This document shows positions 35,649 through 57,150 of a stretch of DNA of 64,000 nucleotides, one piece after another; position 1 is the first letter of the stretch, and each line of letters opens with the position of its first letter. Location: NCBI RefSeq assembly GCF_017254845.1, contig NZ_JAFKCU010000002.1, forward strand, positions 1,043,956 through 1,107,955, in the 5' to 3' direction. This DNA comes from Algoriphagus pacificus. GTDB lineage: Bacteria > Bacteroidota > Bacteroidia > Cytophagales > Cyclobacteriaceae. Under the pieces are notes generated by a model. It was not told the DNA's origin. It did not search any database and saw only the letters and a program-made list of their open reading frames with translations. The translations under genes and the position numbers were made by a program.

Positions 35649-35670
35649 GTCTCTAATATAAAATAAAAAA

Positions 35671-36085
35671 GTGCAAGTCTATAAGCCGGGTTCTGTTTCC
35701 CTATGCGAAATCGCAAGAGATTCTTGTCATTTATCTAGCCCTGACTTCACAGTCAGGATCCATCGATCTACCCATCCCGCGTAAGAGCGAGCAACTCTTC
35801 TTGGAACTGAATCCAATGCGGGACCTATTTGATCTTTCAACCCATAAGGTTTGCCATGCCTCCTACATCACTGTCGGAGCGGTGGGCTCTTACTCCACCT
35901 TTTCACCCTTATCCTGATTCCGACAAATCGGGATCGGGACGGTATATTTTCTGTTGCACTGGCTGTATTTATTCCGTCGCCAGAATAAACCCTTCCCGTT
36001 AGGAAGTATGGTGCTCTATGTTGCCCGGACTTTCCTCTCCCTCGAAAGAATCAAGGCAGCGACAAGTCGACTTGCACGACACAAA
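35671..36085 (-). ncRNA. rnpB: RNase P RNA (bacterial type A)
   Basis: On the minus strand the RNA begins near 36085 with GTGCAAGTCGACTTG and carries the universally conserved GAGGAAAGTCCGGGC (P4 5' strand) soon after. Near the 3' end it has ACAGAACCCGGCTTATAGAC, the P4 3' strand. The outer arms GTGCAAG and CTTGCAC (36071-36077, 35671-35677) form helix P1. A long imperfect hairpin at about 35905-35940 fits P12. The RNA is the catalytic part of RNase P, which trims tRNA 5' leaders. A promoter is visible at 36100-36133 and a T run follows the 3' end. Confidence 0.95.
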
Positions 36086-43589: not shown

Positions 43590-43699
43590 TTAATTAAATA
43601 GTACAATATTTATCTAGAAAATATCATATTTTTTGAAATATTTTTTTATCTTGATTTACTTTTAAAAAATTGATTTTTAGCTCTTTAACTTTTGTGTCT

Positions 43700-45088
43700 A
43701 TGAAAAAGGTGCTTTTTATACTCTTCATTGGGTTTTGTCTGTTTTCCTGCGAGTCAAATAAACCAATAATTGACTCATCTGGTACAAGCCAAAATTCACC
43801 TGAAAAAGAGCTTTTGAACTATGAATTATTTTTTCAGGATAGTTTAGAGTTTGTTCCTATTTCCCAAAATCCTATCTGTAAAAATGGAACAAATTCAAAA
43901 GAATGTCTCGCCCAAATCGAGCAGTTAAAATCAAGTGTTATTGCTAAGATCAGGGAAATAGACCCAACAATTCCAGTAAGCGAGGAACATGTAAGAGTTT
44001 ACATGCAAGTGTCGGTTTACTTTGATGATTTGACAGAGGCACAGCTTCAGACGCTTCAAGATCAATCTCAAAGTTTTAATTATATTTTGAAAAAGAGTTT
44101 TGGGGTTCAGATCAGAAGGCCAGTAATGCAATCTGATTTTATTGAGCAGGCAAGAAGGCCTGTGATGCAAGAACAATTGAGATATAATCCAGCGGATAAA
44201 GTAAGCACCTTAATTGACCTGATTGGGGGAGGAGAGCCTTCTAGCACCAATCCTACCCAAAAAGTTTGGATAGTTGACACGGGAATTGATAGAACACATC
44301 AAGACATCAATTTCTCATCTACAGAAATAGGGCTATCTAAGGATTTCTCTTATCCACCTAGCAATCCATTTAATGATCCTTTCAACGATTCGAATGGGCA
44401 TGGAACATTCCTAGCAGGGACAATCGGAGGATTGGCATCAGAAGATCCAATTTATGTCAGTGGCTATGGGGTAAATGGTGTATTCCCTAATGCAAGGATG
44501 GTTTCTATCAAGATTTTTGATAAGAATGATCATGCTCAAAGCGGAGAAATTGCCTCTGCTTTGGACTATATCCTTTTAAATTCTTTGCCTGGAGATATTG
44601 TCAACCTGAGTTGGGGTATGGAAATAACCCTTGGAGAATGTGATACATTGAATACCAAAGGGATTTATGATTACATCTATGAGTTGGCAGCAAAAGGAGT
44701 CTATGTGGTGATGTCAGCTGGTAATCAAGCGAAAGAGTCTTTGACCAATTTCCCTGGTTGCATGGAATTGCTGTCTTTCCCTGAATCTGTAAGATCAAAG
44801 ATATTTACTATAGGCTCAGTGGAAGTCACAAGTACAGGAGACTACCTTTATTCTTCCTTCTCTAATTTTGGTAGACCATCGATTGATTATCTTACTCCTG
44901 GAGAATATATCTTTACCACAGCTCCAGGTGGAAAATATGCTCTTGTTTCAGGAACTTCAGTTTCTACTGCGATATTCAGCGGAATCTTATACCATCAGAC
45001 TGGAATAGATACTTTGCTAAACATCAAGAGAGGTGCAGCGGCGGGTGATCCAGATCCTGATTATCCGGTAGCAAAAGTTGGTAATTAA
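43700..45088 (+). CDS. S8 subtilase lipoprotein with RRPVMQ repeats
   Basis: From ATG 43700 the protein has 462 residues and a lipoprotein signal ending in CLFSC (Cys17). Residues of about 40-140 look like an inhibitor I9-type prodomain (VYMQVSVYFDDLTEAQLQTLQ). Two copies of RRPVMQ follow at 139-144 and 152-157. The subtilisin domain has D193 (WIVDTGID), H234 (NGHGTFLAG), oxyanion N342 (MSAGNQ) and S420 (VSGTSVSTA). It should be an active envelope-anchored protease. It is convergent with an adenylate cyclase/TPR gene, and the pair is repeated immediately downstream. Confidence 0.92.
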   Translation: MKKVLFILFIGFCLFSCESNKPIIDSSGTSQNSPEKELLNYELFFQDSLEFVPISQNPICKNGTNSKECLAQIEQLKSSVIAKIREIDPTIPVSEEHVRVYMQVSVYFDDLTEAQLQTLQDQSQSFNYILKKSFGVQIRRPVMQSDFIEQARRPVMQEQLRYNPADKVSTLIDLIGGGEPSSTNPTQKVWIVDTGIDRTHQDINFSSTEIGLSKDFSYPPSNPFNDPFNDSNGHGTFLAGTIGGLASEDPIYVSGYGVNGVFPNARMVSIKIFDKNDHAQSGEIASALDYILLNSLPGDIVNLSWGMEITLGECDTLNTKGIYDYIYELAAKGVYVVMSAGNQAKESLTNFPGCMELLSFPESVRSKIFTIGSVEVTSTGDYLYSSFSNFGRPSIDYLTPGEYIFTTAPGGKYALVSGTSVSTAIFSGILYHQTGIDTLLNIKRGAAAGDPDPDYPVAKVGN

Positions 45089-45119
45089 GGTGTTGAAATT
45101 GTTGGGAAAATAATGTGAC

Positions 45120-47324
45120 TTACTTCATTATCAATTGGTTTGATACCAGCTGTTTGTTGGATTCAAAACGCTTGTCAAGGATTTGATTGACAATGTTTTG
45201 TACTCCGGGATCATTTAAAAAAGGCTTTAAGATGGGGTTTCTGCTTATGTAAAAATCATCTCTAAAGCCATTTTTATAGGCTTGGTTTAAGTATTCAACT
45301 ACTTTCGAGCCGTTATTTTTCAATGCTTCCAATTGTGCTAAATCCAACCAGATATTAAAATCTTGCTCAGTGGCTTGAACCGCACTTAGTCGGACTTCTA
45401 TTGCTGGGTTTATCAAAGACTCAGCCTCAGTTTTATTTTGGTTTTGAAGATAGATGTATGCTAAAACTATCGGAGTCGGATGACTCTTGTCGTTTTTCAT
45501 TTCTGGATTAAGCTGGTAAGCCTCATTTAAATATGGAAAAGCAAGATCCATTTCTTCAGCCATAAAAGCGATAAACCCTGCTGAGGATAGGTTATAATCC
45601 GATTTATCATCTTGAGCCAAGATCAGATCAATTTGTTCCAAAGCTTCTTTTTTCTTGTTTTGGCTCAGATATGTATAGGCAATTTGCTCAGAAGTAACAG
45701 GATCAAAAGTGAGTGAATTTGCCTTCTGAAGCCAATCAATAGCCTCATTTGGATGATTGAGTAGTCTATAAATCCATCCTGTGATTTGAAATGGAACAAA
45801 GTTCGTCGGGTTTAATGAGGCTGATTTCTGTTGATATTTTAGGGCTTCAGCCAATTTTCCTTGTGTCATGTAGACTGTGGCAAGGTTACCGATAGCACCG
45901 CTTAGATTAGGATTTAAGACTAATGCCTTTTCAAATGACATTTGGGCATATTCCAGCTGCCCTTTGTAATAAAAGACAGAACCTCTTGATTTAAAAGCGT
46001 CTTCAAGTTGAGGGTCTATAGACAAGGCTTTTTCGCTTGCCGCCAGACTTGAATCCAACCAATTTGATCCTTCTCCAAAATAATCCAACCGTGCATAGCT
46101 GTCAGCAAGTCCAGTATAGGCTGAGGCATAGTTTGGATCTATTTCAATTGCTTCTTTATAAAAACCGATGGCATCGTAAGTGTTTTTCTCGCTGAAATTA
46201 GAGTAAGATTCTTTGCCTTTGAGATAGAGCTCGTATGCATCAAAACTTACCGTTTGCTCTTTCGATATTTGTTCTTTTTCAGTTGAGCTCAGTTTATAAT
46301 TCAGAATGTCCGCGATTTTCGAAGCGATTTCTGCCTGAACTTTGAAGATGTCCCGGACCTCCCGATTATAGGTTTCTGTCCAAAGTGTTTTATTCTCCAC
46401 CGGATCAATCATTTCAATGGAAATTCGAATGTTATCACCGATCCATTGAATTGATCCCTGAACAATAGTACTCACATCCAAGATTGAAGCAATAGAATCG
46501 ATCGGGATCTGGCTGTCTTGAAATTCATAGACAGCAGCTTTATCAATCACTTTTACTTTTTCTAGTTTAGTCACATGGTTTATGATGTCTTCCGTAAGGC
46601 CTTCAGCAAAAAAAGCCTGATCTTGATTTGCTACAGTATTGGTAAAAGGTAAAACAGCTACAGACTTTTCTTTTTCCCAGGTGTAATCATTCCAAATCAA
46701 GGAATAAATCAAGAAGAGAACCAGCGTTGTTGAAATGATAGCAGCAGTCCAAAACATCCAGGTTGATTGTTTCTGATTAGCAGCGTTTTTCAGCAAATCC
46801 TTTCTCTCTGGACGGGAACATGGAGGGTTTGTTAAAGCAAATAGACTTATATCCTTTTCTACATTTTTGAGCTCAAACTTTCCGAGTTTGTTGTATGTAA
46901 ATTCTGTTTTGTGCTCAATCAATGGAAGGACCTTATCGGAAAAAATGACGCAAGAGGGAATTCCAATACCCTGAATCCTCGCAGCGATATTTACAGCGTC
47001 ACCGAAAACATCCCCATGGTCATAAATTATTTCTCCACAATGAAGCCCGATCCTTAGTTCTAATTTTCCTTCTTGAATCCAGATTTTTTGGATTTCTATG
47101 CTGGCAAGCAATGCCTCTTCTGCAGTTTCGAAAGTTCCTAGAATTCCATCTCCAAGTTCTTTTATGATCTGTCCATTGTATTTAGACATGATTTCGGAAT
47201 GAACGCGGAGATTTTGAGTAACAAGATCAAATGCCTCGTCCTCATTTTTTCCCATCAGTTTGGTATAACCGACTATATCAGAAAAATAAACAATCGAATG
47301 TTTTCGATTTAATTCGACACTCAT
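45120..47324 (-). CDS. Membrane class III adenylate cyclase with TolB-like and TPR domains
   Basis: Residues 10-160 are a class III cyclase catalytic domain. Both metal Asp residues are present (D16 in SDIVGYT, D59 in KELGDG). The ATP-selecting pair K55 and D105 and the transition-state residues N112 and R116 are also present, so it should make cAMP. One membrane helix (about 188-211) separates it from an external TolB/FlgO-like region starting SVAVLPFTN (about 221). About nine TPR-like helices follow from residue 375 onward (YASAYTGLADSYARL, GAIGNLATVYMTQGKLAEA). It probably senses periplasmic partners and signals inward. It faces the preceding subtilase gene with 31 bp between. Confidence 0.9.
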   Translation of the reverse strand: MSVELNRKHSIVYFSDIVGYTKLMGKNEDEAFDLVTQNLRVHSEIMSKYNGQIIKELGDGILGTFETAEEALLASIEIQKIWIQEGKLELRIGLHCGEIIYDHGDVFGDAVNIAARIQGIGIPSCVIFSDKVLPLIEHKTEFTYNKLGKFELKNVEKDISLFALTNPPCSRPERKDLLKNAANQKQSTWMFWTAAIISTTLVLFLIYSLIWNDYTWEKEKSVAVLPFTNTVANQDQAFFAEGLTEDIINHVTKLEKVKVIDKAAVYEFQDSQIPIDSIASILDVSTIVQGSIQWIGDNIRISIEMIDPVENKTLWTETYNREVRDIFKVQAEIASKIADILNYKLSSTEKEQISKEQTVSFDAYELYLKGKESYSNFSEKNTYDAIGFYKEAIEIDPNYASAYTGLADSYARLDYFGEGSNWLDSSLAASEKALSIDPQLEDAFKSRGSVFYYKGQLEYAQMSFEKALVLNPNLSGAIGNLATVYMTQGKLAEALKYQQKSASLNPTNFVPFQITGWIYRLLNHPNEAIDWLQKANSLTFDPVTSEQIAYTYLSQNKKKEALEQIDLILAQDDKSDYNLSSAGFIAFMAEEMDLAFPYLNEAYQLNPEMKNDKSHPTPIVLAYIYLQNQNKTEAESLINPAIEVRLSAVQATEQDFNIWLDLAQLEALKNNGSKVVEYLNQAYKNGFRDDFYISRNPILKPFLNDPGVQNIVNQILDKRFESNKQLVSNQLIMK

Positions 47325-47583
47325 AAAAATCAGGTTGTTCTAACTTATGTTAAATTTTGAAGCTAGGATAGTAATTTAATCATTTTTTAGATGCCCAAAA
47401 AGTACTGATTTACTTCTTGGATTTTTGACTTCTTCCAAATCTTTAAACTTATCCAAGCAATCATTGGCTTAAGCAAAATGCAACTATTTACTTTTAAAAA
47501 AAGCAATTAATACCAATAAAATTGTATTTTAGGTAATAGGTTGTCTTAAAATATTACAATCTAACTCACTTAATTTTTGAAAT

Positions 47584-48840
47584 ATGAAAAAAATTGGAAT
47601 CCTATTATTGCTTTTGACTTTTACATGGCTAGCACATGCCCAATCAAATGTATATGTGGTTACTATGAAAAGCACTTTTGAAAGTCCAGTTCTAGATAGC
47701 CGAACTGATAACGCTGACAGAATCACTCAGGCTCAACAAAACCAGGGAAAAAGGAATAACAAACAAGCCAAGCTTGACATGTTTATTCAGAATAAGGGCC
47801 TTACCAATGTGAGAAGCCGATTTATGGATGTGAAAATTGGATTTATCACTCCTCTTACTGAATCACAAAGAGCTGATCTTTTAAATGATCCTAATGTGGA
47901 AAGTGTCGTAGAGGACGTGGATATTCAAGGTAGACCCATCATGCAAGGTGATCCAGGGTCTCAAGGGCGACCTATTATGCAGGGAAGACCGATCATGCAA
48001 TCAGATGCGATGAGTCCAAGTTGGCTTTATGATCCTAATGGCAAAGCCAGTTGTGCGATTAATCTGGTAAATGGTTCGGAAAATAGCTCAAGTAGAAGAG
48101 AAAGTATCTGGATTATCGATACAGGAGTCGATGCGAACCATAGAGATCTGAATGTAAACCGTCAACAGGGTGTTGCGATTTCAATGATACCAGGAGAGTC
48201 ACCTTTTGATGATGTCTTAGGCCATGGAACCCATTGCGCGGGCTTGGTTGCCGGAAGAGGAACTGGTCCAATTTCAGCAACTGGGGTTTCTTCTGGAGCA
48301 GAAATCATTCCTTTAAAGGTTTTTGCTAGTAATGGAATTGGAAGCTGGTCAAAAATCCTGATGGCTTTGGATCATGTAGCCAAATATGGACAGGTAGGAG
48401 ATGTGGTACTCATGAGTTTGGGAAGCTATAATGTTTCCAATTGTGAGGTTTCCAATCCACTTTTAACATCAGCCATCAAAGCTATTGCAGCAAAAGGAAT
48501 GTTTGTAGTTATGTCTGCAGGAAATGATGGAGGAGATGCCGGACGAAATTTACCTGGATGCATTAATGGAAATAATATTTTTACCGTTGGAGCTCTTGAT
48601 TTCTCATGTGGTTCTATAGGAAGTAAATATTCAGCTTCCAACTTTGGATCCGGAGTTGATTATTTTGTACCGGGATCAAATGTATTTTCCACTTGGCCTG
48701 GAGGTCAATACATGGTCATGTCTGGAACGTCTATGTCAGCAGCTATCATGGCAGGAATTATCCATGCTACAAGAGGTAATCCACGATCTTCAGGAACGAT
48801 CAATATCGGAGGAATAAACTACAGAATAGCTTCTAAATAA
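47584..48840 (+). CDS. Exported S8 subtilase with RPIMQ repeats
   Basis: The 418-residue protein has a normal signal peptide (IGILLLLLTFTWLAHAQ). An I9-type prodomain spans about residues 22-114 (FITPLTESQRADLLNDPNVESVVED in parts). Three GRPIMQ copies follow at 116-121, 128-133 and 134-139. The catalytic domain has D179 (IIDTGVD), H214 (LGHGTHCAG), N314 (SAGND) and S383 (MSGTSMSA). Unlike its upstream paralog it lacks a lipobox. It is divergent from one cyclase gene (259 bp between starts) and convergent with the other (70 bp). The first helix promoter is not clear. Confidence 0.93.
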   Translation: MKKIGILLLLLTFTWLAHAQSNVYVVTMKSTFESPVLDSRTDNADRITQAQQNQGKRNNKQAKLDMFIQNKGLTNVRSRFMDVKIGFITPLTESQRADLLNDPNVESVVEDVDIQGRPIMQGDPGSQGRPIMQGRPIMQSDAMSPSWLYDPNGKASCAINLVNGSENSSSRRESIWIIDTGVDANHRDLNVNRQQGVAISMIPGESPFDDVLGHGTHCAGLVAGRGTGPISATGVSSGAEIIPLKVFASNGIGSWSKILMALDHVAKYGQVGDVVLMSLGSYNVSNCEVSNPLLTSAIKAIAAKGMFVVMSAGNDGGDAGRNLPGCINGNNIFTVGALDFSCGSIGSKYSASNFGSGVDYFVPGSNVFSTWPGGQYMVMSGTSMSAAIMAGIIHATRGNPRSSGTINIGGINYRIASK

Positions 48841-48862
48841 GATCTGAATCCTCATCCAACAA

Positions 48863-48893
48863 AAAAGCTCAGGAATTTCTCCTGAGCTTTTTT
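48863..48893. terminator. Bidirectional intrinsic terminator
   Basis: A perfect 12-bp stem (48863-48874 with 48880-48891) and 5-nt loop with A and T runs separates the convergent subtilase and cyclase genes of the second module. Confidence 0.88.
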
Positions 48894-48910
48894 AATTTCC
48901 TGATATTCGA

Positions 48911-51091
48911 TTAGATATTCTTTTTCATCTCTTGAAGTAGAGATTCAATTTCTTTTAGCAATTCTTGGTATTCTTTGTTTGATTTTAAATTTTGAAATAG
49001 TGCGTTGTTCTGTACTTCGAATACATCAACCCAATGAAGTTCCTTTGCTTTCTGAAGGTATTCTAGAGACGCTGACTCATCATTTTTCAAAAGGTAGATA
49101 GCAGAAACCATTAAAGCCAATTCATCCTCCTGAGAAGAATTTTCAAGTTCCTCAATTCTTAATTCCAAGCTATTTCCAAGCACTTCATCGATTTGGTCTG
49201 ATTGTCCATTCTTTTTCAATATATATGCGAGATAAATAGGTGCCGAAAAATATTCATCCAGAGAATTGGTTTCTCTTAATTCTATTGACCTTTTTAAATG
49301 ACTTTCGGCCTTGGCGAAATCTTGAGCAAAAAAAGCAATTTTTCCTGCTATCTCGTAATTGGCGTAAGTCTGGCCCAATGACAAGATCTTAGGAATCAAT
49401 TCCATTGCCCTACTGGTTTCATCCTCGAATAAAAAACTGTATGCAAGTTGCTCATAAGTTTCTATCACTTCTTGAATAGACAGTGATTTATCCAGCCAAA
49501 TCTGAGCTTCTTTTTGATCTCCAAGAATTCGGTAAATCCAGCCTACAATCTGAAAAGGGATATAGCTATTAGGATTCAATCCAGAAGCTCTTTTTTGAAG
49601 TGGCAATGCCTTATCCAACTGCCCAGTGATCATATATACTGTAGCAAGATTTCCTACAGCTCTTGAATGGTTGGGATTAAGATCGTATGCTTTTTGAATT
49701 TGAGGCAAAGCGAGATCATATCGATTTTGGTAGTAATAAATCACACCTTTTGAAAGGTATCCTCCAGGCAATTCAGGGTCAAGTTCGATAGCTTTCTGGC
49801 TTGAATTGAGACTTGAATCCATATAAGCATCACCTTCACCAAAAGCACCATACATCTGAGCATATGCATCCGCTAACCCCGTGTAAGCCAAGGCATAATT
49901 TTGATCTATTGCAATGGCCTCTTTGAATTCTTGAATGGCCAACATTATAGAATCGAATTGGTAATAATTATATTTTTGGCGGCCTTTTAGATAGGATTCG
50001 TATGCTTCAAAATCTGTCGTTGGTTTCTTTTCCAGTTGGGTGATTTCGGTCTCTGTCAGGCTACCTTCGAGCTGAACAGCAATCATCTGGGCTATTTCGC
50101 TTTGGACAGCAAATACATCTTCCAATTCCGGATCAAATGTTTCGGACCACATGTTTTCATTGGTCTTCGTATCGATCAATTGCACCCGAATTCTCAATTC
50201 ATCTCCTGACCATTGGACACTTCCATCAAGAATGGCTGAAACACCCAACTCCTCTGCTATTTGAGCATATGTCAAGGTCTTGTTTCGAAGTTTATCAATA
50301 CTCGATTTAGAAATTACTTGTATCGAATTGATTTTGGTTAATTGCGTAATAATATCCTCAGAAAGACCGTCGCTAAAAAAGTCTTTTTGAGCATCAAAAT
50401 TCAAGTTTTTAAGAGGTAAAACCGCTACCGATTTACTTTCTGGAGAGGTGGGTTGGAATAAGGGAGTCAAAGCAAAATAAGCGAGAACTATGACAAGAAT
50501 TGCAGTAAAAATACTGACGCCAGTTACCCATTTCTTCTGAAGTGCAGCCTGGTTTTTTTCGATGTCAATTTTTCTAGGAACTTTCACTCCATTGGCACCA
50601 ATAGCAAAAATCTCTATTGGCCTGAACACATTCTTCAGTTCGTATTTCCCCATCGGGATTTTAGCGATGGAGATTTTGTCCGGAATGAGTTCTTTGACTT
50701 TTTTACTGATCAAAATACAACCGCCAACTCCTATAGCCTGAATCCTTGAGGCAATGTTTACAGCGTCTCCAAATACATCGTGATTATCGTAGATAATGTC
50801 TCCGTGGTGGATACCTATCCTGATCTCTATTGTATTTCTTTTGTAATAGTATTGTTGGATCTCGATGCTAGCCAATAAGGCCGCTTCAACACTTGGATAA
50901 ATAGACAAAATTCCGTCTCCAAGTTCTTTAATTAATTCTCCGTTGTACTTTTCAATAATAGAGAGATGAATCTCATTATTTTCCTTTAAAAGAGTATAAG
51001 CTCTTTCTTCATCCTCTCCCATAAGGCGGGTATATCCCACTATATCTGAGAAAACTACTGCGACAAGTTTCCTGGTTACCTGCTTATCCAT
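48911..51091 (-). CDS. Membrane class III adenylate cyclase with TolB-like and TPR domains (second copy)
   Basis: This 726-residue protein is a paralog of the gene at 45120-47324 with the same layout. Catalytic residues sit at identical positions: D16, K55, D59, D105, N112 and R116. One membrane helix (about 189-212) is followed by SVAVLPLKNLNFDAQKDFF, the TolB-like region, then a TPR array (YALAYTGLADAYAQMYG, RAVGNLATVYMITGQLDKA). It should be an active adenylate cyclase with its sensor part outside the cytoplasm. Together with the adjacent subtilase it forms the second unit of a duplicated convergent pair. Confidence 0.9.
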   Translation of the reverse strand: MDKQVTRKLVAVVFSDIVGYTRLMGEDEERAYTLLKENNEIHLSIIEKYNGELIKELGDGILSIYPSVEAALLASIEIQQYYYKRNTIEIRIGIHHGDIIYDNHDVFGDAVNIASRIQAIGVGGCILISKKVKELIPDKISIAKIPMGKYELKNVFRPIEIFAIGANGVKVPRKIDIEKNQAALQKKWVTGVSIFTAILVIVLAYFALTPLFQPTSPESKSVAVLPLKNLNFDAQKDFFSDGLSEDIITQLTKINSIQVISKSSIDKLRNKTLTYAQIAEELGVSAILDGSVQWSGDELRIRVQLIDTKTNENMWSETFDPELEDVFAVQSEIAQMIAVQLEGSLTETEITQLEKKPTTDFEAYESYLKGRQKYNYYQFDSIMLAIQEFKEAIAIDQNYALAYTGLADAYAQMYGAFGEGDAYMDSSLNSSQKAIELDPELPGGYLSKGVIYYYQNRYDLALPQIQKAYDLNPNHSRAVGNLATVYMITGQLDKALPLQKRASGLNPNSYIPFQIVGWIYRILGDQKEAQIWLDKSLSIQEVIETYEQLAYSFLFEDETSRAMELIPKILSLGQTYANYEIAGKIAFFAQDFAKAESHLKRSIELRETNSLDEYFSAPIYLAYILKKNGQSDQIDEVLGNSLELRIEELENSSQEDELALMVSAIYLLKNDESASLEYLQKAKELHWVDVFEVQNNALFQNLKSNKEYQELLKEIESLLQEMKKNI

Positions 51092-51244: not shown

Positions 51245-53383
51245 TCAATCCTCTAGTAAAACTTCATCTACAAACACCCATCCTTTGGAACCAGCACCAG
51301 GATGCCAGCTTGGTAACTTGGCAATAGGAGTAAGCCGGATGCGGATTGAAGAAAAGTCCGAAGCAGGTAAGTCATAAGCCAAAGCTTCAAAACGGGCGTT
51401 TTTGGCTTCGGTACTTTGCTCAGGAACTTCATTGATAACAGATCGCCAAGACGTTCCTTCTTTCACCCAGACTTCAGCTTGCTGAGGAGGGAAAATGTAA
51501 GCCGACTCACTATATAGTAAACTTAAAACCACTCTGGAGGGACGTTTATTCGGGTCAAATTTCACCTCGACATCAAAAGGGTTGTCCTGATATCCAAGCC
51601 ATTCTCCCGTAGTGTGATTGTTTTTGCCTTTTATCTGATCGTTTAAGGTTCTTCCCTCTTGAGCTTTATATTGCTTGTTTGGTTCTTTCAAAAGAGTGAC
51701 TTCACTAGGGTGAATACCTGATTTGAAAAGTAAAATGCTTTCTTCTGCACTTCCAATCCAATCTTTTGCAAAAACTCTGGCATTGATTTTTGAAGTGTTT
51801 TTAACCCAAACTGGCTCAGTATATAAGGGGCTATTTATACTATCAGGCTTGGTCCCGTCTAAAGTGTATCGAATTTCAACCGTTTTGATTGGATGCTTTA
51901 TTTCCAACAAAGTACTATCCTGAAAAAGGATTTCATCGTAAACCAATTTCGGGGCATTTAACTCATAATTCACATTTGCTGCATTAAAACCAAAATCGAT
52001 TTCCACGTCAGTTATTTTTTCCTTCAATTCTTGTTTTCCAGCTTCACTCAACCCGGTTTGCCAAGCAAATAATTTTCTTAGATTTTTGAATTTTAGGATA
52101 CTTGGAATTGAAGAATCGCTGATTGGATTTCCTGAAATAGCTAAACTTTCGAGGTTTTCTAACTGACTGAGTTCGGCTAATTGATCATCAGTTAAGTCTG
52201 AAAAATTCAACTGTAATTCCTCAAGATTTGAAAACGTTTTTAGGAAAGAAAGATCGATTCCTTCCAAAGGCATTTTATTCAAATTGATCTTGACAACTTG
52301 TTCTTTTACCTTTTTGAGGTCTTCCAGTGAATTTGGATCAAATGCAGAAATCCCAAAATAAGAAACCTCGAGGGCTGGTGATTCAGGATAGAGTGGATTC
52401 ACCTTTCTGAAAAAGTTGTTTAATTCTGCAATGTCATCTGGATCTGCTTCCTCGAAATCATAAGTTTTCTCATTGGTGAATTTTTGCGAAGCCAACATAA
52501 ATAAGTCGCTTTCAGCCGGAAGTTCTCTGACCTTTTTTTCAAAGTCAGCGCCTGAATTGACCCAAGCCGTTAATATTTCAATTTCCTCTTCTGTCAACTG
52601 CTCCTTGTTTTTAGGGGGCATGTGTTTTTTTTCTTCTTTGGGAAGATGGATTCTTTGGGTTAATAGCGACTCTTCAGTATTTCCGGCAAGCACAAATGGG
52701 CCTGATTTGCCACCTTTTCGGATCCCTTCTAACTGATCCAATCTTAATTCGCCTTTAATTTTGCCTTCCTTGTGACAGCTTTGGCATTTAGATTCGAGAA
52801 TCGGTTGAACCAGATCCTCAAAAACTCTAGCATCCGCTAGTTGTACTTTTGGAGTTTCATTCGATTTGATCGGTGCCAATAAAAAATCGCTTCCATGTGT
52901 CAAATTAGCTCCTAGATGCCCAGTCACAACAACTGAAAGGACCAAAACTAGACTTAGTGGCTTTAGTAATTGAGCTTTTGAATTTCTATAGAAATATAAA
53001 AGCATCGAAATTCCATAAGCAGCGATTCCCATCCATTGATGCCAATTTAATTCCGAGCCTTCGTAATCTTCTTTTGCCAATAATAATCCAGCAATCACTG
53101 TGATTCCGGCAAAATTACTTCCAATCAAAAGACTGAAAGATCCGATCTCTTTTACTTCCGAGTTTTTATCCGGTAACCAAAAAAAGACAACCCCAAAAAT
53201 TAATAAAACGATAGGAAAGTGGAGGAGAAGAGGGTGAGATCTTCCAACCACTTGAAGCCAACTTGGAATTTCAATGGAATTACCTGCAATGGCTAAGATT
53301 AGGGCTAATCCTAACCAAGCAAACAGACTATTTTCTAAGATTTGCTGAATACGATGGATTTTTGGCATAAAGAAATCAGGCAA
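51245..53383 (-). CDS. Membrane cytochrome c with DUF2231, LRR and chitobiase-like domains
   Basis: The N-terminal 170 residues contain four membrane helices (including LLLHFPIVLLIFGVVFFWL, DUF2231-like). A planctomycete-type cytochrome c follows with the haem motif C200-QSC-H204 and EILTAWVNSGADF. Residues of about 345-460 hold leucine-rich repeats (LEELQLNFSDLTDDQLAEL and LESLAISGNPISD). A chitobiase C-terminal/FN3-like module (VEIRYTLDGTKPDSINSPLY) and a final beta domain end the chain. The start at 53383 overlaps the DUF1501 gene by 8 bp, while Met6 would not. Role within the cassette is unknown. Confidence 0.83.
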   Translation of the reverse strand: MPDFFMPKIHRIQQILENSLFAWLGLALILAIAGNSIEIPSWLQVVGRSHPLLLHFPIVLLIFGVVFFWLPDKNSEVKEIGSFSLLIGSNFAGITVIAGLLLAKEDYEGSELNWHQWMGIAAYGISMLLYFYRNSKAQLLKPLSLVLVLSVVVTGHLGANLTHGSDFLLAPIKSNETPKVQLADARVFEDLVQPILESKCQSCHKEGKIKGELRLDQLEGIRKGGKSGPFVLAGNTEESLLTQRIHLPKEEKKHMPPKNKEQLTEEEIEILTAWVNSGADFEKKVRELPAESDLFMLASQKFTNEKTYDFEEADPDDIAELNNFFRKVNPLYPESPALEVSYFGISAFDPNSLEDLKKVKEQVVKINLNKMPLEGIDLSFLKTFSNLEELQLNFSDLTDDQLAELSQLENLESLAISGNPISDSSIPSILKFKNLRKLFAWQTGLSEAGKQELKEKITDVEIDFGFNAANVNYELNAPKLVYDEILFQDSTLLEIKHPIKTVEIRYTLDGTKPDSINSPLYTEPVWVKNTSKINARVFAKDWIGSAEESILLFKSGIHPSEVTLLKEPNKQYKAQEGRTLNDQIKGKNNHTTGEWLGYQDNPFDVEVKFDPNKRPSRVVLSLLYSESAYIFPPQQAEVWVKEGTSWRSVINEVPEQSTEAKNARFEALAYDLPASDFSSIRIRLTPIAKLPSWHPGAGSKGWVFVDEVLLED

Positions 53384-54830
53384 TTAGGTCTTTGATTACT
53401 TTGCCGGAAACATCTGTTAGTCGGTATCTTCTACCTAAATGTTTGTAGGTAAGTCGCTCGTGATCAATTCCCATCAGGTGAAGCATCGTTGCTTGAAAAT
53501 CATGTACATGCACTGGGTTTTCTGCGATATTATAACCGAATTCATCCGTTTCTCCATAGACCATTCCGGATTTTACTCCACCGCCAGCCATCCAAATGGA
53601 AAATGCCCTTGGGTGATGATCTCTGCCATAATTATGGGGAAGAATTTTTCCCTGGCAGTAATTCGTTCTGCCAAATTCTCCTCCCCAAATCACCAAAGTC
53701 TCATCTAATAAGCCTCTTTGTTTTAAATCAGAAATCAAAGCTGCTGATGCTTGATCTACATCTTTGGCTTGCATCGCCATTTGGTCAGGAAGATCACCAT
53801 GCTGATCCCATCCTTGATGATACAGCTGTACGAATCTAACACCGCTTTCAGATAATTTTCTAGCCAGAAGACAGTTGGCAGCATAGGTGCCTGGTACCAA
53901 ACAATCCGGGCCATACATTTTGATGATACTATCTGGTTCTTTAGAAACATCAGTCATTTCTGGAACGGCAGTTTGCATTCTGAATGCCATTTCATATTGC
54001 TGTACTTTGGCACTGATTTGTGGGTCATTAAATTCCCGGTAACTCAAATCATTCATAGATGCGATTTGATCGAGCATTTTTCTACGCTCGTCTCTCGACA
54101 TGGAGTTGGGATCCTTCAAATAAAGCACCGGGTCTTCTGAATTCGAAAACTGAACTCCTTGATGGGTTGCATCCAAGAAACCATTGCTCCAAAGTTTGGA
54201 ATAAACACCCTGGCCATTTCCTTTTCCTCGGCTTAGCAACACGCAAAATGCGGGTAAATTACTATTCTCACTACCTAAACCGTAACTCAACCAAGATCCC
54301 ATACTTGGTCTGTTCCCTACCTGAGCTCCAGTTTGGAAAAAAGTCAATGCTGGATCATGGTTGATCGCTTCAGTATGCATGGATTTGACAATACAAATGT
54401 CATCCACCACACTAGCAGTATGAGGAAATATCTCTGAAATCCAAGCTCTGGATTCTCCATATTGATTGAATTTGAAGTAGGAACCTACTAAAGGAAATGA
54501 GGTTTGACCTGCAGTCATTCCAGTCAATCGCTGCCCACCTCTGATGGATTCAGGAAGTTCCTGACCCATGTTTTTATTCAACAAAGGCTTGTAATCAAAG
54601 GATTCCAGTTGACTTGGAGCACCATTCTGGAAAAGATAAATAACGCGTTTGGCTTTTGGAGCAAAATGGGGGAGCGCTGCCATAATCGCATCTTCATCTG
54701 GACTTCCTCCCTTAAAAAGATCAGGAATCAATAAAGAACCCAAGGCGACACTTCCTACTCCCAAACTTAATCGGGATAAAAACTTCCTCCTATTCAGATT
54801 TAAACCCTGCTCTAATATTTCCTTTTCCAT
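53376..54830 (-). CDS. DUF1501 family Tat-exported sulfatase-like protein
   Basis: The 484-residue protein begins with a twin-arginine signal (NRRKFLSRLSLGVGSVALGSLLIP). DUF1501 signatures include VIYLFQNGAPSQLESFDYKP, GESRAWISEIFPHTASVVDDICIV, HTEAINHDPALTFFQTG and GGEFGRTNYCQGK followed by GRDHHPRAFSIWMAGGG. The fold is related to the alkaline phosphatase/sulfatase superfamily, but activity is unproven. It lies between the PSD1/DUF1549/DUF1553 gene (1 bp apart) and the cytochrome-LRR gene (8-bp overlap), a typical partnership first noticed in planctomycetes. Periplasmic. Confidence 0.92.
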   Translation of the reverse strand: MEKEILEQGLNLNRRKFLSRLSLGVGSVALGSLLIPDLFKGGSPDEDAIMAALPHFAPKAKRVIYLFQNGAPSQLESFDYKPLLNKNMGQELPESIRGGQRLTGMTAGQTSFPLVGSYFKFNQYGESRAWISEIFPHTASVVDDICIVKSMHTEAINHDPALTFFQTGAQVGNRPSMGSWLSYGLGSENSNLPAFCVLLSRGKGNGQGVYSKLWSNGFLDATHQGVQFSNSEDPVLYLKDPNSMSRDERRKMLDQIASMNDLSYREFNDPQISAKVQQYEMAFRMQTAVPEMTDVSKEPDSIIKMYGPDCLVPGTYAANCLLARKLSESGVRFVQLYHQGWDQHGDLPDQMAMQAKDVDQASAALISDLKQRGLLDETLVIWGGEFGRTNYCQGKILPHNYGRDHHPRAFSIWMAGGGVKSGMVYGETDEFGYNIAENPVHVHDFQATMLHLMGIDHERLTYKHLGRRYRLTDVSGKVIKDLIA

Positions 54831-54831
54831 T

Positions 54832-57150
54832 TTAAATCTTGGTAATCGTTTCTTCTAAATTGTACAAGCTTACTATCACTTGCATTAATGCGGCTGTCCT
54901 TGCCGTTTTCTCTGATTTCTCAATCGGATATTCACCCACCTCTAAAGTCGGCTTAATTTGCTCTGGATTTGCTTCAAATCGATCGAGTTGATCTTCAAAG
55001 TAGCTTTCCAAAATCTCCTCTTCCTCAGAATTCATATCTCTACAAAGGATTCTCTTAAATGCTGTTTTGATTACTTCTGAGTCATCTTTGATTTCTGAAT
55101 CAAGTCTTGTGGCCAACACTCGAGACGCTTCCAAAACCATCGGGTCATTTAGCATTAACAAAGCCTGAAGAGGAGTATTTGTCCTGCCTCTTCCTACTTC
55201 GCATTGGTCACGATTGCTAGAGTCAAAAATGATAGCTTTTGGTGGAGGTACGGTGAGCTTAATAAAATTGTAAAGTCCTCTTCGATATAGACTTTTGCCT
55301 GTATCCTGAACATAAGTTGCTAGCACGCCTCTTCCAGAGGTTGCAGCTTCCCAAACTCCTTCTGGTTGATAGGGTTTCACACTTGGGCCTCCAAGTTCCT
55401 TATGAAGTAAGCCACTGCTTGCAAGAACCAAATCTTGGATATTTTCTGCAGAAAGTCTAAGTCTCGGAGCTCTTGCCAAATAAACATTAGCGGGATCAAT
55501 AGCCAAATGATCTTTATTGATTGCTGCGGATTGTTGATAGGTAGCTGATGTGACGATTTGTTTCAAAAGACGCTTGATATCCCAACCGTTTTCCATAAAA
55601 TCAACTGCTAACCAATCCAGTAATTCAGGATGGCTAGGAAGGTCGCCTTGCATGCCAAAATCCCCAGCAGATTTTACGATTCCTGTTCCGAATATTTCCT
55701 GCCACATCAGGTTGACAAATACCCTTGCGGTTAATGGGTTTTCTCTAGAAGTAGTCCATTTAGCCAATCCCAATCTATTGCCTTCCATGTTTTTAGGAAG
55801 CTCTAAAATTGCAGCTGGCGTGGAGGCTTCTACTGGGACGGTAGGAGCATCGTAAACTCCCCGATCAAGAATATAAGTGATTCTTTTCTCCCCTTCATCC
55901 AATTCACCCATAACTGACACGCTTAATTTTGAAGTGTCTTGGTAATTGATAAAGCTCATTACACCAGATAAATCTTCCTGATCCATCCAAAGAATAGGAG
56001 TTTTTGCAGGTTTTGAAACGGAAACATCTCCCTCATAGCCTTTTTCAGGAGTATTATTGAAAAAGGCAAACATCTCGTAATACTCTTTTTGAGAGAATGG
56101 ATCATATTTATGATCATGGCATTGCGCACATTCCATAGTGATTCCCAAAATCCCCTTGCTAAACGTGTTGGTTTTATCCAAAACATATTCAATGCGGTAT
56201 TCTTCATCAATAACTCCACCTTCTTCCGTGTATTTATGATTTCGGTTGAAGGCAGTAGCAAGGATTTGTTCTTTATTGGCATCAGGAAGTAAATCTCCTG
56301 CCAATTGCCAAGTCAAAAACTGATCATAGGGCATGTTTTCATTGAAAGCATGAATGACCCAATCTCTATAAGGCCATTGGGTTCTGATATTGTCATCCTG
56401 ATATCCGTAACTATCCGAGTAGCGAGAAATATCCATCCAAAGTACCGCTAACTTCTCTCCAAATGCTGGATCTGACATTAAACCATCTACCAAATCCTCA
56501 TAGCTATTAGGGCCAGAAAAATCCCCGTACTTATCTAAAACTTCAGGGCTAGGAGGTAGGCCGGTTAAATCCAAACTTACTCTTTTGATTAACTCATGAG
56601 GCTTAGCAACTGGGTTAGGTTCTAATCCCTGCGAAATGATTTTTTGGTAGGTAAAAAGATCGATTTCATTTTTTGTCCACTCGTTGGATGGTGGAAGAGC
56701 AGGTTTTTCAGCTTTGGAAAAAGCCCAATGAGGTTCATATTTTGCTCCTTGTTTGATCCATTCCTTGATAAGATTGATTTCTGATTCAGTTAAAACCAAG
56801 TTTGATTCAGGGGGAGGCATAAGTTCACCTGTATCTTCAGAAGTTATCCTATGATAAACCTCGGATTCTTCCAGATTTCCTGAAACCAAAGCAAATTTCC
56901 CTGGACTGTCTTTTAGTGAAGCAAATGCACCTTCCTCTGTGTCTAATCTTAGGTCAGCCTCACGTTTGTTGGCGTCTGGTCCATGACAGGCAAAACATTT
57001 ATCAGAAAGTATTGGTCGAATGTGAAAATTGTAGCTGATTTGATCATTTGGAGCTAATTCCAATGATTTATTCTCCTTGGACGTACAATTCCAAGCAAGC
57101 AAAGCTAGTGTTAAGAGTGCTAAAGAGTTAGATGTTCTAAAAAGCGACAT
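54832..57150 (-). CDS. PSD1 / planctomycete cytochrome c with DUF1549 and DUF1553
   Basis: The 772-residue protein has an N-terminal hydrophobic signal, and the Cys22 in LLAWNC could be lipidated (the Asn before it is unusual). A planctomycete-type cytochrome c domain has the haem motif C52-FAC-H56 and a KREADLRLDTEEGAF segment. DUF1549 (about residues 165-375) includes RVSLDLTGLPPSPEV and WPYRDWVIHAFNENMPYDQF. DUF1553 (about 460-735) includes LAKWTTSRENPLTARVFVNLMWQEIFG. It is the first gene of the three-gene cassette. The likely setting is periplasmic carbohydrate or sulfated-polymer breakdown, but this is inference from neighbours in other genomes. Confidence 0.92.
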   Translation of the reverse strand: MSLFRTSNSLALLTLALLAWNCTSKENKSLELAPNDQISYNFHIRPILSDKCFACHGPDANKREADLRLDTEEGAFASLKDSPGKFALVSGNLEESEVYHRITSEDTGELMPPPESNLVLTESEINLIKEWIKQGAKYEPHWAFSKAEKPALPPSNEWTKNEIDLFTYQKIISQGLEPNPVAKPHELIKRVSLDLTGLPPSPEVLDKYGDFSGPNSYEDLVDGLMSDPAFGEKLAVLWMDISRYSDSYGYQDDNIRTQWPYRDWVIHAFNENMPYDQFLTWQLAGDLLPDANKEQILATAFNRNHKYTEEGGVIDEEYRIEYVLDKTNTFSKGILGITMECAQCHDHKYDPFSQKEYYEMFAFFNNTPEKGYEGDVSVSKPAKTPILWMDQEDLSGVMSFINYQDTSKLSVSVMGELDEGEKRITYILDRGVYDAPTVPVEASTPAAILELPKNMEGNRLGLAKWTTSRENPLTARVFVNLMWQEIFGTGIVKSAGDFGMQGDLPSHPELLDWLAVDFMENGWDIKRLLKQIVTSATYQQSAAINKDHLAIDPANVYLARAPRLRLSAENIQDLVLASSGLLHKELGGPSVKPYQPEGVWEAATSGRGVLATYVQDTGKSLYRRGLYNFIKLTVPPPKAIIFDSSNRDQCEVGRGRTNTPLQALLMLNDPMVLEASRVLATRLDSEIKDDSEVIKTAFKRILCRDMNSEEEEILESYFEDQLDRFEANPEQIKPTLEVGEYPIEKSEKTARTAALMQVIVSLYNLEETITKI

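Follow-up and report, generated by a model that had tools for sequence, protein, structure and literature searches.

Why should the gene of an exported protease lie tail to tail with that of a membrane-bound cyclase? The question is raised by a 64,000-nucleotide stretch of the Algoriphagus pacificus genome (contig NZ_JAFKCU010000002.1; the whole stretch is hereafter called the window), in which two subtilase genes alternate with two genes coding for a class III nucleotide cyclase domain (CHD) followed by a transmembrane (TM) segment and a tetratricopeptide repeat (TPR) region. The order subtilase(+), cyclase(-), subtilase(+), cyclase(-), with both facing pairs convergent, had been given in a preliminary description of this DNA and is confirmed by the open reading frames (ORFs) and by Pfam domains: Peptidase_S8 was matched with E values of 1.2e-25 (subtilase A) and 9.2e-28 (subtilase B), and Guanylate_cyc, above its cut-off, with 2.3e-11 and 8.7e-15 in the two partners, which also matched many TPR families. 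The association of both genes is strong and apparently undescribed, no description of such a subtilase-sensor pair having been found among the papers listed from the open literature, with several very narrow queries and with subscription papers mostly outside it. As to function, we infer, with a confidence that we put at about even, a self-contained peptide-signalling pair in which the subtilase would release its own peptides and the putatively periplasmic TPR part of the partner would sense them.

Co-occurrence of subtilase and sensor in Cyclobacteriaceae

In the genome of the window the only full-length matches to a CHD-TPR cyclase are the two in the window, and the next subtilase match neither carries the peptide repeats described below nor adjoins such a cyclase; this unpaired gene (L003:333-2685) is convergent with a 237-amino-acid (aa) exported neighbour that is TPR-like by eye. 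When 245 genomes of the family were searched for the cyclase, the 14 top matches (13 genomes) all adjoined a subtilase match, and most of the weaker ones did not. Two profiles were used for further searches of Cyclobacteriaceae: A1, built from 23 paired subtilases, and A2, the TolB_N-TPR region of the partner alone. The 391 genomes of both searches were taken as one set, since their number and handles agree. At 1e-72, A1 matched 58 genomes, 46 of which (10 genera) have a repeat-bearing subtilase; each of the remaining 12 was inspected and has none. A2 detected 50 loci in 49 genomes at 540 bits or more, the next match down standing at 392 bits.

Both genes are present in 45 genomes (including G765, where they lie on two contigs), the sensor only in four, the subtilase only in one and neither in 341 (Fisher P 3.6e-53, kinship ignored), presence and absence thus agreeing in 386 of the 391. 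Contig ends account for three of the five mismatches: in G748 and G696 (sensor only) the tail of a convergent subtilase is cut at the contig end, and in G008 (subtilase only) the end of a TPR protein faces the subtilase there. All 45 partners fetched are convergent with the adjoining repeat-bearing subtilase, with a gap of -229 to +240 bp and frequently a 26-bp overlap. A lack of co-occurrence of S8 genes with CHD-TM-TPR cyclase genes, or a random orientation, had been named beforehand as an outcome that would speak against a link between them; neither was seen. A held-out set of 27 loci, fetched after the subtilase profile had been built (L228-L254; L252 and L254 are cut by contig ends), showed repeat and partner in 26; in the 27th the repeat is present and the contig ends, and the genome has its partner gene on a different contig, again at the end (L267). 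The six subtilase loci of lower score retrieved alongside (L255-L260) had neither repeat nor partner.

Beyond the family, 13 of 395 genomes of the phylum matched at 1e-70, and the seven of them that lie outside Cyclobacteriaceae have no such repeat. Among 315 genomes of the class, all five with the sensor type belong to the family. A first contig search using a single protein found nothing, and in 80 loci from a wider one repeat and sensor never occurred together; partial signals there were an exact repeat VDAAH with looser spacing in L162, a TPR match of general type in each of L136 and L154 (about 50 bits), and in L126 a weak hit to the cyclase domain in tandem with a nearby subtilase. These wider searches were samples in which few candidates per genome were scored with family profiles, and divergent versions may exist elsewhere.

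The two pairs of the window had been described as a tandem duplication. As a recent event this is ruled out, since the subtilases share 29% and the cyclases 41% identity and the two pairs fall in separate clades; they are distant paralogues. In midpoint-rooted trees, read without regard to support values, the subtilases of the window's genus divide into an A and a B type. Partner A groups with the partners of loci with an A subtilase only (L074, L236) and partner B with those of B-only loci (L242, L243, L246); the window thus retains two distinct pairs, whereas the fewer genes of most relatives would have come about, most simply, through loss. The idea of several parallel pairs fits the window itself, but 16 of the 17 two-subtilase loci fetched have a single partner gene. 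A 381-aa gene lies near the pair in many relatives, which suggests inheritance at a stable locus.

The proposal of a protease-cyclase module holds in that the genes of an exported S8 protease and of a CHD-TM-TPR cyclase make up a unit of two that is conserved, but the output is not always a cyclase: among the 45 partners there are 39 cyclases (complete in 38 cases, split in one), and six have a TIR-like N-terminus. The split cyclase (L086:3894-6138) is divided between two ORFs that overlap, of 245 aa and 524 aa, either by a genuine frameshift or by a fault of the assembly; the longer ORF alone was used for the TPR tree, and this protein is not among the 38 cyclases. The catalytic residues D16, K55, D59, D105, N112 and R116 had been assigned correctly in both window cyclases and are invariant in the 38 full-length cyclase partners aligned. 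We take them to be the two metal Asp, the substrate Lys/Asp pair and the transition-state Asn/Arg; the Lys/Asp pair presumably points to ATP as substrate. All six TIR-like partners contain the motifs YD[IV]FISYR and S.TYCD..AW..E. One hydrophobic segment, near residue 190, is found in each of the 38 complete cyclase partners, and three in each of the six TIR-like ones. With one or three segments the TPR part should therefore lie outside the inner membrane, facing the periplasm, provided that the enzyme domain is inside. The TIR-like partners form one clade and their subtilases likewise, together with that of L028, and because of this the swap between cyclase and TIR-like output probably happened once. 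At L028 (1-1855) the contig stops within a TPR protein whose end faces the subtilase; since this subtilase groups with those of TIR-like partners, we predict a TIR-like output for the locus, and its peptide unit, three copies of SEPILH, is the most divergent of all. Elsewhere in the window's genome, L007:1081-3144 has an N-terminus resembling, by eye, an AraC-type helix-turn-helix (HTH), then a TM segment, then a TolB_N-TPR part of related sequence (28% identity, 245 bits to A2), with no subtilase in the 4.4 kb fetched; it is perhaps a further output type of the same sensor kind.

Peptide repeats between propeptide and enzyme

All 63 subtilases of the paired type carry, at the propeptide/enzyme junction, two or three copies of a short peptide unit. 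In the window these are RRPVMQ (twice) and GRPIMQ (three times), the tandem form being written as GRPIMQGRPIMQ beside the single units GRPIMQ and RRPVMQ; other examples are GRPIQQ, GRPIHQ, KPRMQ, TRARMQ, RNPMQQ, GQPIQQ, SEPILH and DEPIMM. The repeats are new with respect to the preliminary description, which did not report them. Units were recognized by the core [RKNQE][PA]x[MQHIL][QMH] with at most two mismatches to another unit of the same protein, a rule that leans towards likeness within proteins; L085 was added by hand, and a third variant copy in L253 (DDPIMM) was left uncounted. By this rule the 63 proteins hold 140 units with 22 core sequences, never fewer than two copies each, the cores being 6-14 residues apart. 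Gln ends 135 of the 140 cores and is also found within the four residues before the first unit in 56 of the 63 proteins and in 32 of 38 long spacers.

Within a protein, 74 of 91 core pairs are identical, and mean core identity is 0.958 within versus 0.653 between proteins; none of 2000 shuffles reached the within-protein likeness observed. Synonymous and nonsynonymous differences (pS and pN) amount to 0.88 and 0.040 among the units of one gene, and to 0.91 and 0.238 between genes. Silent sites are thus saturated even within a gene while the residues are mostly the same; selection, therefore, keeps the copies of a gene alike, holding them together while units change between lineages. For the set as a whole, the saturated synonymous sites rule out that the units were recently duplicated as DNA or homogenized by gene conversion; a few genes (L078, L082) keep many identical codons.

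An exact five-residue repeat within 20 residues was present in the linker of 58 of the 63 paired subtilases, of two of 23 unpaired members of the family and of none of 77 other subtilases, the latter coming from the loci of the wider contig search (one, L129, is itself of the family). A low-complexity artefact is disfavoured by these controls. In both unpaired family members the exact repeat is PTPDP; L101:4919 and L102:4278, which are unpaired, have a proline-rich linker with such repeats, a different, low-complexity type. DNA coding for RP[IVM]MQ occurs five times in the 5.28-Mb genome, all five being the units described here (0.09 expected in the window); no wider tag common to other proteins was found in this genome by that search, which was limited to RP[IVM]MQ codons.

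The proteins that carry the repeats keep the catalytic residues of subtilases: all 63 have intact Asp and His together with the Asn of the oxyanion hole, and 62 have the Ser, the remaining one being cut by a contig end. The A type has mostly a lipoprotein signal (by a simple pattern), and the N-termini of the B type are Sec-like by eye. Inhibitor_I9 was matched only in subtilase B (E 4.4e-4), and not in A. The model of subtilase B (pLDDT 85.6, pTM 0.86) shows a well-modelled prodomain, and its best fold match is unprocessed pro-subtilisin E (3whi), so that Pfam, model and fold match agree on an I9-like prodomain. The sole stretch below pLDDT 50, residues 119-143, lies between prodomain and enzyme and holds the repeats, the first core beginning at residue 117. 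Known pro-subtilisins with an S8 domain and an I9 prodomain, such as 3whi, share fold, triad and prodomain with the window-type subtilases; however, the junction loop of two or three near-identical units is a feature of the latter. Near the subtilase C-termini (near 45088 and 48840) there is also a short motif with a Tyr (Y413 of subtilase B) that is invariant in 23 aligned sequences.

Repeats also co-vary with the sensor, and more so than with the cyclase domain. Core distances were related to TPR distances given the subtilase catalytic domain (partial Mantel 0.344 for 45 pairs and 0.272 for the 38 cyclase pairs; permutation P 0.001-0.002) and given the CHD (0.293); the relation of core to CHD given the TPR part was 0.038. 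At loci with both types, A and B subtilases share cores beyond permutation (0.817 vs 0.742 for nine clade representatives, P 0.008), and with all 17 loci none of 20,000 permutations reached the observed value. For instance, both subtilases of L235 have RPRMQ, while the nearest B-type relatives carry RARMQ. Because of the core-TPR covariation, the A-B core sharing and the case of L235, a receptor common to the A and B subtilases of one locus is moderately favoured.

Proposed mechanism and alternative explanations

The subtilase would be exported as a pro-enzyme, for which the signals are seen, and would fold and mature, for which fold and triad are seen. Between the I9-like prodomain and the catalytic domain it has a flexible loop with two or three copies of a unit of 5-7 residues, nearly all Gln-ending; maturation would cut this loop, most simply after Gln and with the subtilase acting on itself, which would free short peptides of the kind of GRPIMQ or RRPVMQ. 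The convergent partner would be an inner-membrane receptor whose periplasmic TolB_N-like/TPR part binds the peptide, as pairing, covariation and the precedent of the RRNPPA systems (see below) suggest. Binding would switch the cytoplasmic domain, a class III cyclase in most lineages, with cyclic AMP (cAMP) as the probable product, and a TIR-like domain in one clade. A cAMP response might be exerted via some of the 13 cNMP_binding matches of the window's genome, which also has four further Guanylate_cyc matches, so that the pair is not its sole cyclase source. The earlier suggestion that the TPR part senses the protease or its products is plausible, because this part should lie outside the inner membrane, and the repeat unit is the candidate ligand.

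A broader reading, which we hold only tentatively and rate below the signalling pair itself, is that of a Gram-negative peptide communication in which pheromone precursor and freeing protease would be one polypeptide and the receptor a TM second-messenger enzyme with an outward TPR part. Units and sensors would drift into lineage dialects (RPIMQ, RPRMQ, RARMQ, NPIHQ, EPIMM), the output being swappable between cyclase and TIR. To our knowledge, class III cyclases with TPR tails are numerous and their ligands mostly unknown; here the genome itself names a candidate ligand of about six residues for a named receptor, and TIR-like and cyclase domains are linked as exchangeable outputs of one sensor. 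If the reading is true, RRNPP-like peptide-TPR logic arose again, outside the cytoplasm, in Bacteroidota, and the unusual coordinated evolution of tandem peptides inside a protease is accounted for.

Among the alternatives, the one that survives best takes the repeats as merely redundant processing or inhibitory sites, the cyclase answering the protease otherwise, through cleaved substrates, free prodomain or cell-surface damage. The position of the repeats at the propeptide/enzyme junction, the covariation of the core with the catalytic domain as well, and the Gln that ends nearly all units and is present in many spacers, as would fit a P1 residue, all agree with such sites. However, repeats of this kind are not needed for the maturation of other subtilases, few of the unpaired controls have an exact linker repeat, the core-TPR covariation persists after correcting for the catalytic domain, and at a locus with both types the A and B subtilases have cores in common despite distant catalytic domains; we consider this explanation unlikely. 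Slightly more doubtful is that the uncut repeats act as a bivalent or trivalent ligand, one pro-subtilase bridging two or three TPR sensors and joining their output domains until cutting ends the signal. The copies never fall below two and are kept alike by selection, and cyclase and TIR domains, the two alternating outputs, both need dimers or oligomers. On the other side, the Gln endings and the disordered loop at the usual maturation junction in the subtilase B model favour cutting, and cores 6-14 residues apart would leave little room for two TPR superhelices.

A system of conflict or self-recognition seems improbable; in it, the TIR-like or cyclase domain would serve as an effector that does harm or raises an alarm, and the peptide would be a mark of self, of damage or of kin. 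Unit sequences are diverse between lineages, six partners have the TIR-like output, and PADLOC, run on the genes of the pairs themselves, matched the window cyclases to a Pycsar cyclase (E 9e-10 and 1e-6) and both subtilases to a model named 'subtilase' (E 2e-14 and 4e-16). Nevertheless, these matches do not extend beyond the widespread cyclase and S8 domains, PADLOC gave no match for the three TIR-like partners submitted to it, the sensor part is predicted to lie outside the cytoplasm, and the 381-aa gene near the pair in many relatives indicates a stable inherited locus. A Pycsar system, which would have PycC with an adjoining effector gene, is not indicated: the PycC match covers the cyclase domain only and the flanks are, by Pfam, PPK2 and PSCyt1/DUF1501/PSD1. 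That the two genes are mere neighbours is scarcely credible: convergent genes are not co-transcribed and both are inherited together within one family, but their presence and absence agree almost throughout, the repeats go with the paired type and the orientation is invariant in the 45 pairs fetched.

Several observations weigh against the peptide-signalling pair. The orphan sensors of G134 and G229 are true ones, with no subtilase adjoining them or in the genome at the cut-off used. The protein of G134 (L083:5126-7117) is of the sensor type without an output domain and that of G229 (L081:4034-6619) has a TIR-like one; perhaps both are receptors that eavesdrop or are in decay. Profile score alone fails to separate the types of subtilase (284 bits with repeat in G008, 297 bits without in G112), and if one mismatch is allowed the linker repeat appears in 61 of the 63 paired subtilases, six of the 23 unpaired family members and 14 of the 77 others. 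Five cores (EPIMM, EPILH) lack the terminal Gln. The core also follows the catalytic domain given the TPR part (0.254, 0.344), as a self-cleavage site would, A-B core sharing gives P 0.07 without the RARMQ clade, and the Mantel and Fisher tests ignore tree relatedness. Regarding the partners, TIR_2 was matched at E 0.0016-0.017 in the three TIR-like proteins scanned, below the Pfam curated cut-off, and the model of partner B is too poor to use (pLDDT 59.3).

Related systems and features of the locus

The extracellular proteases Bpr and WprA are subtilases. In RRNPPA systems (Rap-Phr, NprR, PlcR, AimR), as described in two papers (PMC11343458, PMC9765709), peptides of about six residues, sometimes in identical tandem copies, are contained in one exported precursor and the adjoining gene encodes the TPR receptor; the first of these sources names NprE, Bpr and WprA as the extracellular proteases that free the peptides. 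The same source describes Phr105 of phi105, with two identical ERPVGT copies separated by a four-residue spacer and matured by extracellular proteases, the internal copy needing WprA (PMC11343458). The likeness lies in the short tandem peptide units, the protease maturation proposed here and the TPR receptor next door. The difference is that RRNPPA systems combine a cytoplasmic Firmicutes regulator with a small peptide gene, whereas here a protease as putative precursor and a membrane cyclase or TIR-like protein with a predicted outward TPR part as putative receptor are found in Bacteroidota. The window cyclases matched only general TPR and cyclase families in Pfam and NCBIfam, and none of the RRNPPA receptor families (Rap/NprR/PlcR/AimR/Rgg/PrgX), and instead of a cytoplasmic N-terminus with HTH or three-helix bundle the partners have a cyclase or TIR-like domain and then one or three TM segments. 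Rap-Phr, and Phr105 in particular, comes closest as a working analogue; the pair is not a member of that family, differing in receptor type, location and precursor.

GmSubPep is a plant defence peptide of 12 residues inside a soybean subtilase, in the protease-associated domain within the S8 region, and its receptor is listed there as unknown (PMC6770897). It resembles the present case in that a signalling peptide, here a candidate, is hidden in a subtilase, and differs from the two or three units at the junction of the window type in being a single peptide, from a plant and within the S8 region. TIGR04510, 'putative peptide modification system cyclase', has the same domain order as the window cyclases, which match it at 59.1 and 63.3 bits; with a cut-off of 400, membership was rejected. 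In contrast to the setting of that family, the four annotated flanking proteins (PPK2, PSCyt1/DUF1501/PSD1) include no peptide-modification enzyme.

Coordinates of the two pairs and of their parts, as positions of the window
Feature	Position	Strand	Remarks
Subtilase A	43700-45088	+	ATG at 43700, in-frame TTG at 43670; pro-subtilase with prodomain region, repeat loop and S8 catalytic domain; A-type clade
Subtilase A signal	within 43700..45088	+	lipoprotein-type (LFSC)
Subtilase A repeat core 1, RPVMQ	44117..44131	+	unit RRPVMQ
Subtilase A repeat core 2, RPVMQ	44156..44170	+	
Partner A	45120-47324	-	class III nucleotide cyclase domain, one TM segment, TolB_N-like/TPR sensor region; 31 bp from subtilase A, convergent
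Partner A sensor part, TolB_N-like/TPR	45123..46667	-	predicted periplasmic
Subtilase B	47584-48840	+	Sec-type signal, I9-like prodomain, repeat loop, S8 catalytic domain; B-type clade
Subtilase B repeat core 1, RPIMQ	47932..47946	+	unit GRPIMQ
Subtilase B repeat core 2, RPIMQ	47968..47982	+	
Subtilase B repeat core 3, RPIMQ	47986..48000	+	
A-tract / GCTCAGGA..TCCTGAGC stem / T-tract between subtilase B and partner B	48861..48893	.	resembles a bidirectional terminator, by eye
Partner B	48911-51091	-	class III nucleotide cyclase domain, one TM segment, TolB_N-like/TPR sensor region; 70 bp from subtilase B, convergent
Partner B sensor part, TolB_N-like/TPR	48914..50434	-	predicted periplasmic

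The stem between subtilase B and partner B is absent from the listing of a promoter/terminator scan whose output was not above chance. By Pfam, PPK2 lies to the left of the two pairs and the PSCyt1/DUF1501/PSD1 genes to the right. The latter form a cluster on the reverse strand (51245-57150) coding for PSCyt1/LRR, DUF1501 and PSD1/PSCyt2 proteins, which are planctomycete-type cytochrome families. Genes of about 710 and 484 aa, lengths like those of the genes of this cluster, flank the locus in several relatives (L074, L238, L245). Further to the left, the window contains a bacterial RNase P class A RNA (35666-36078, reverse strand, 266.8 bits).

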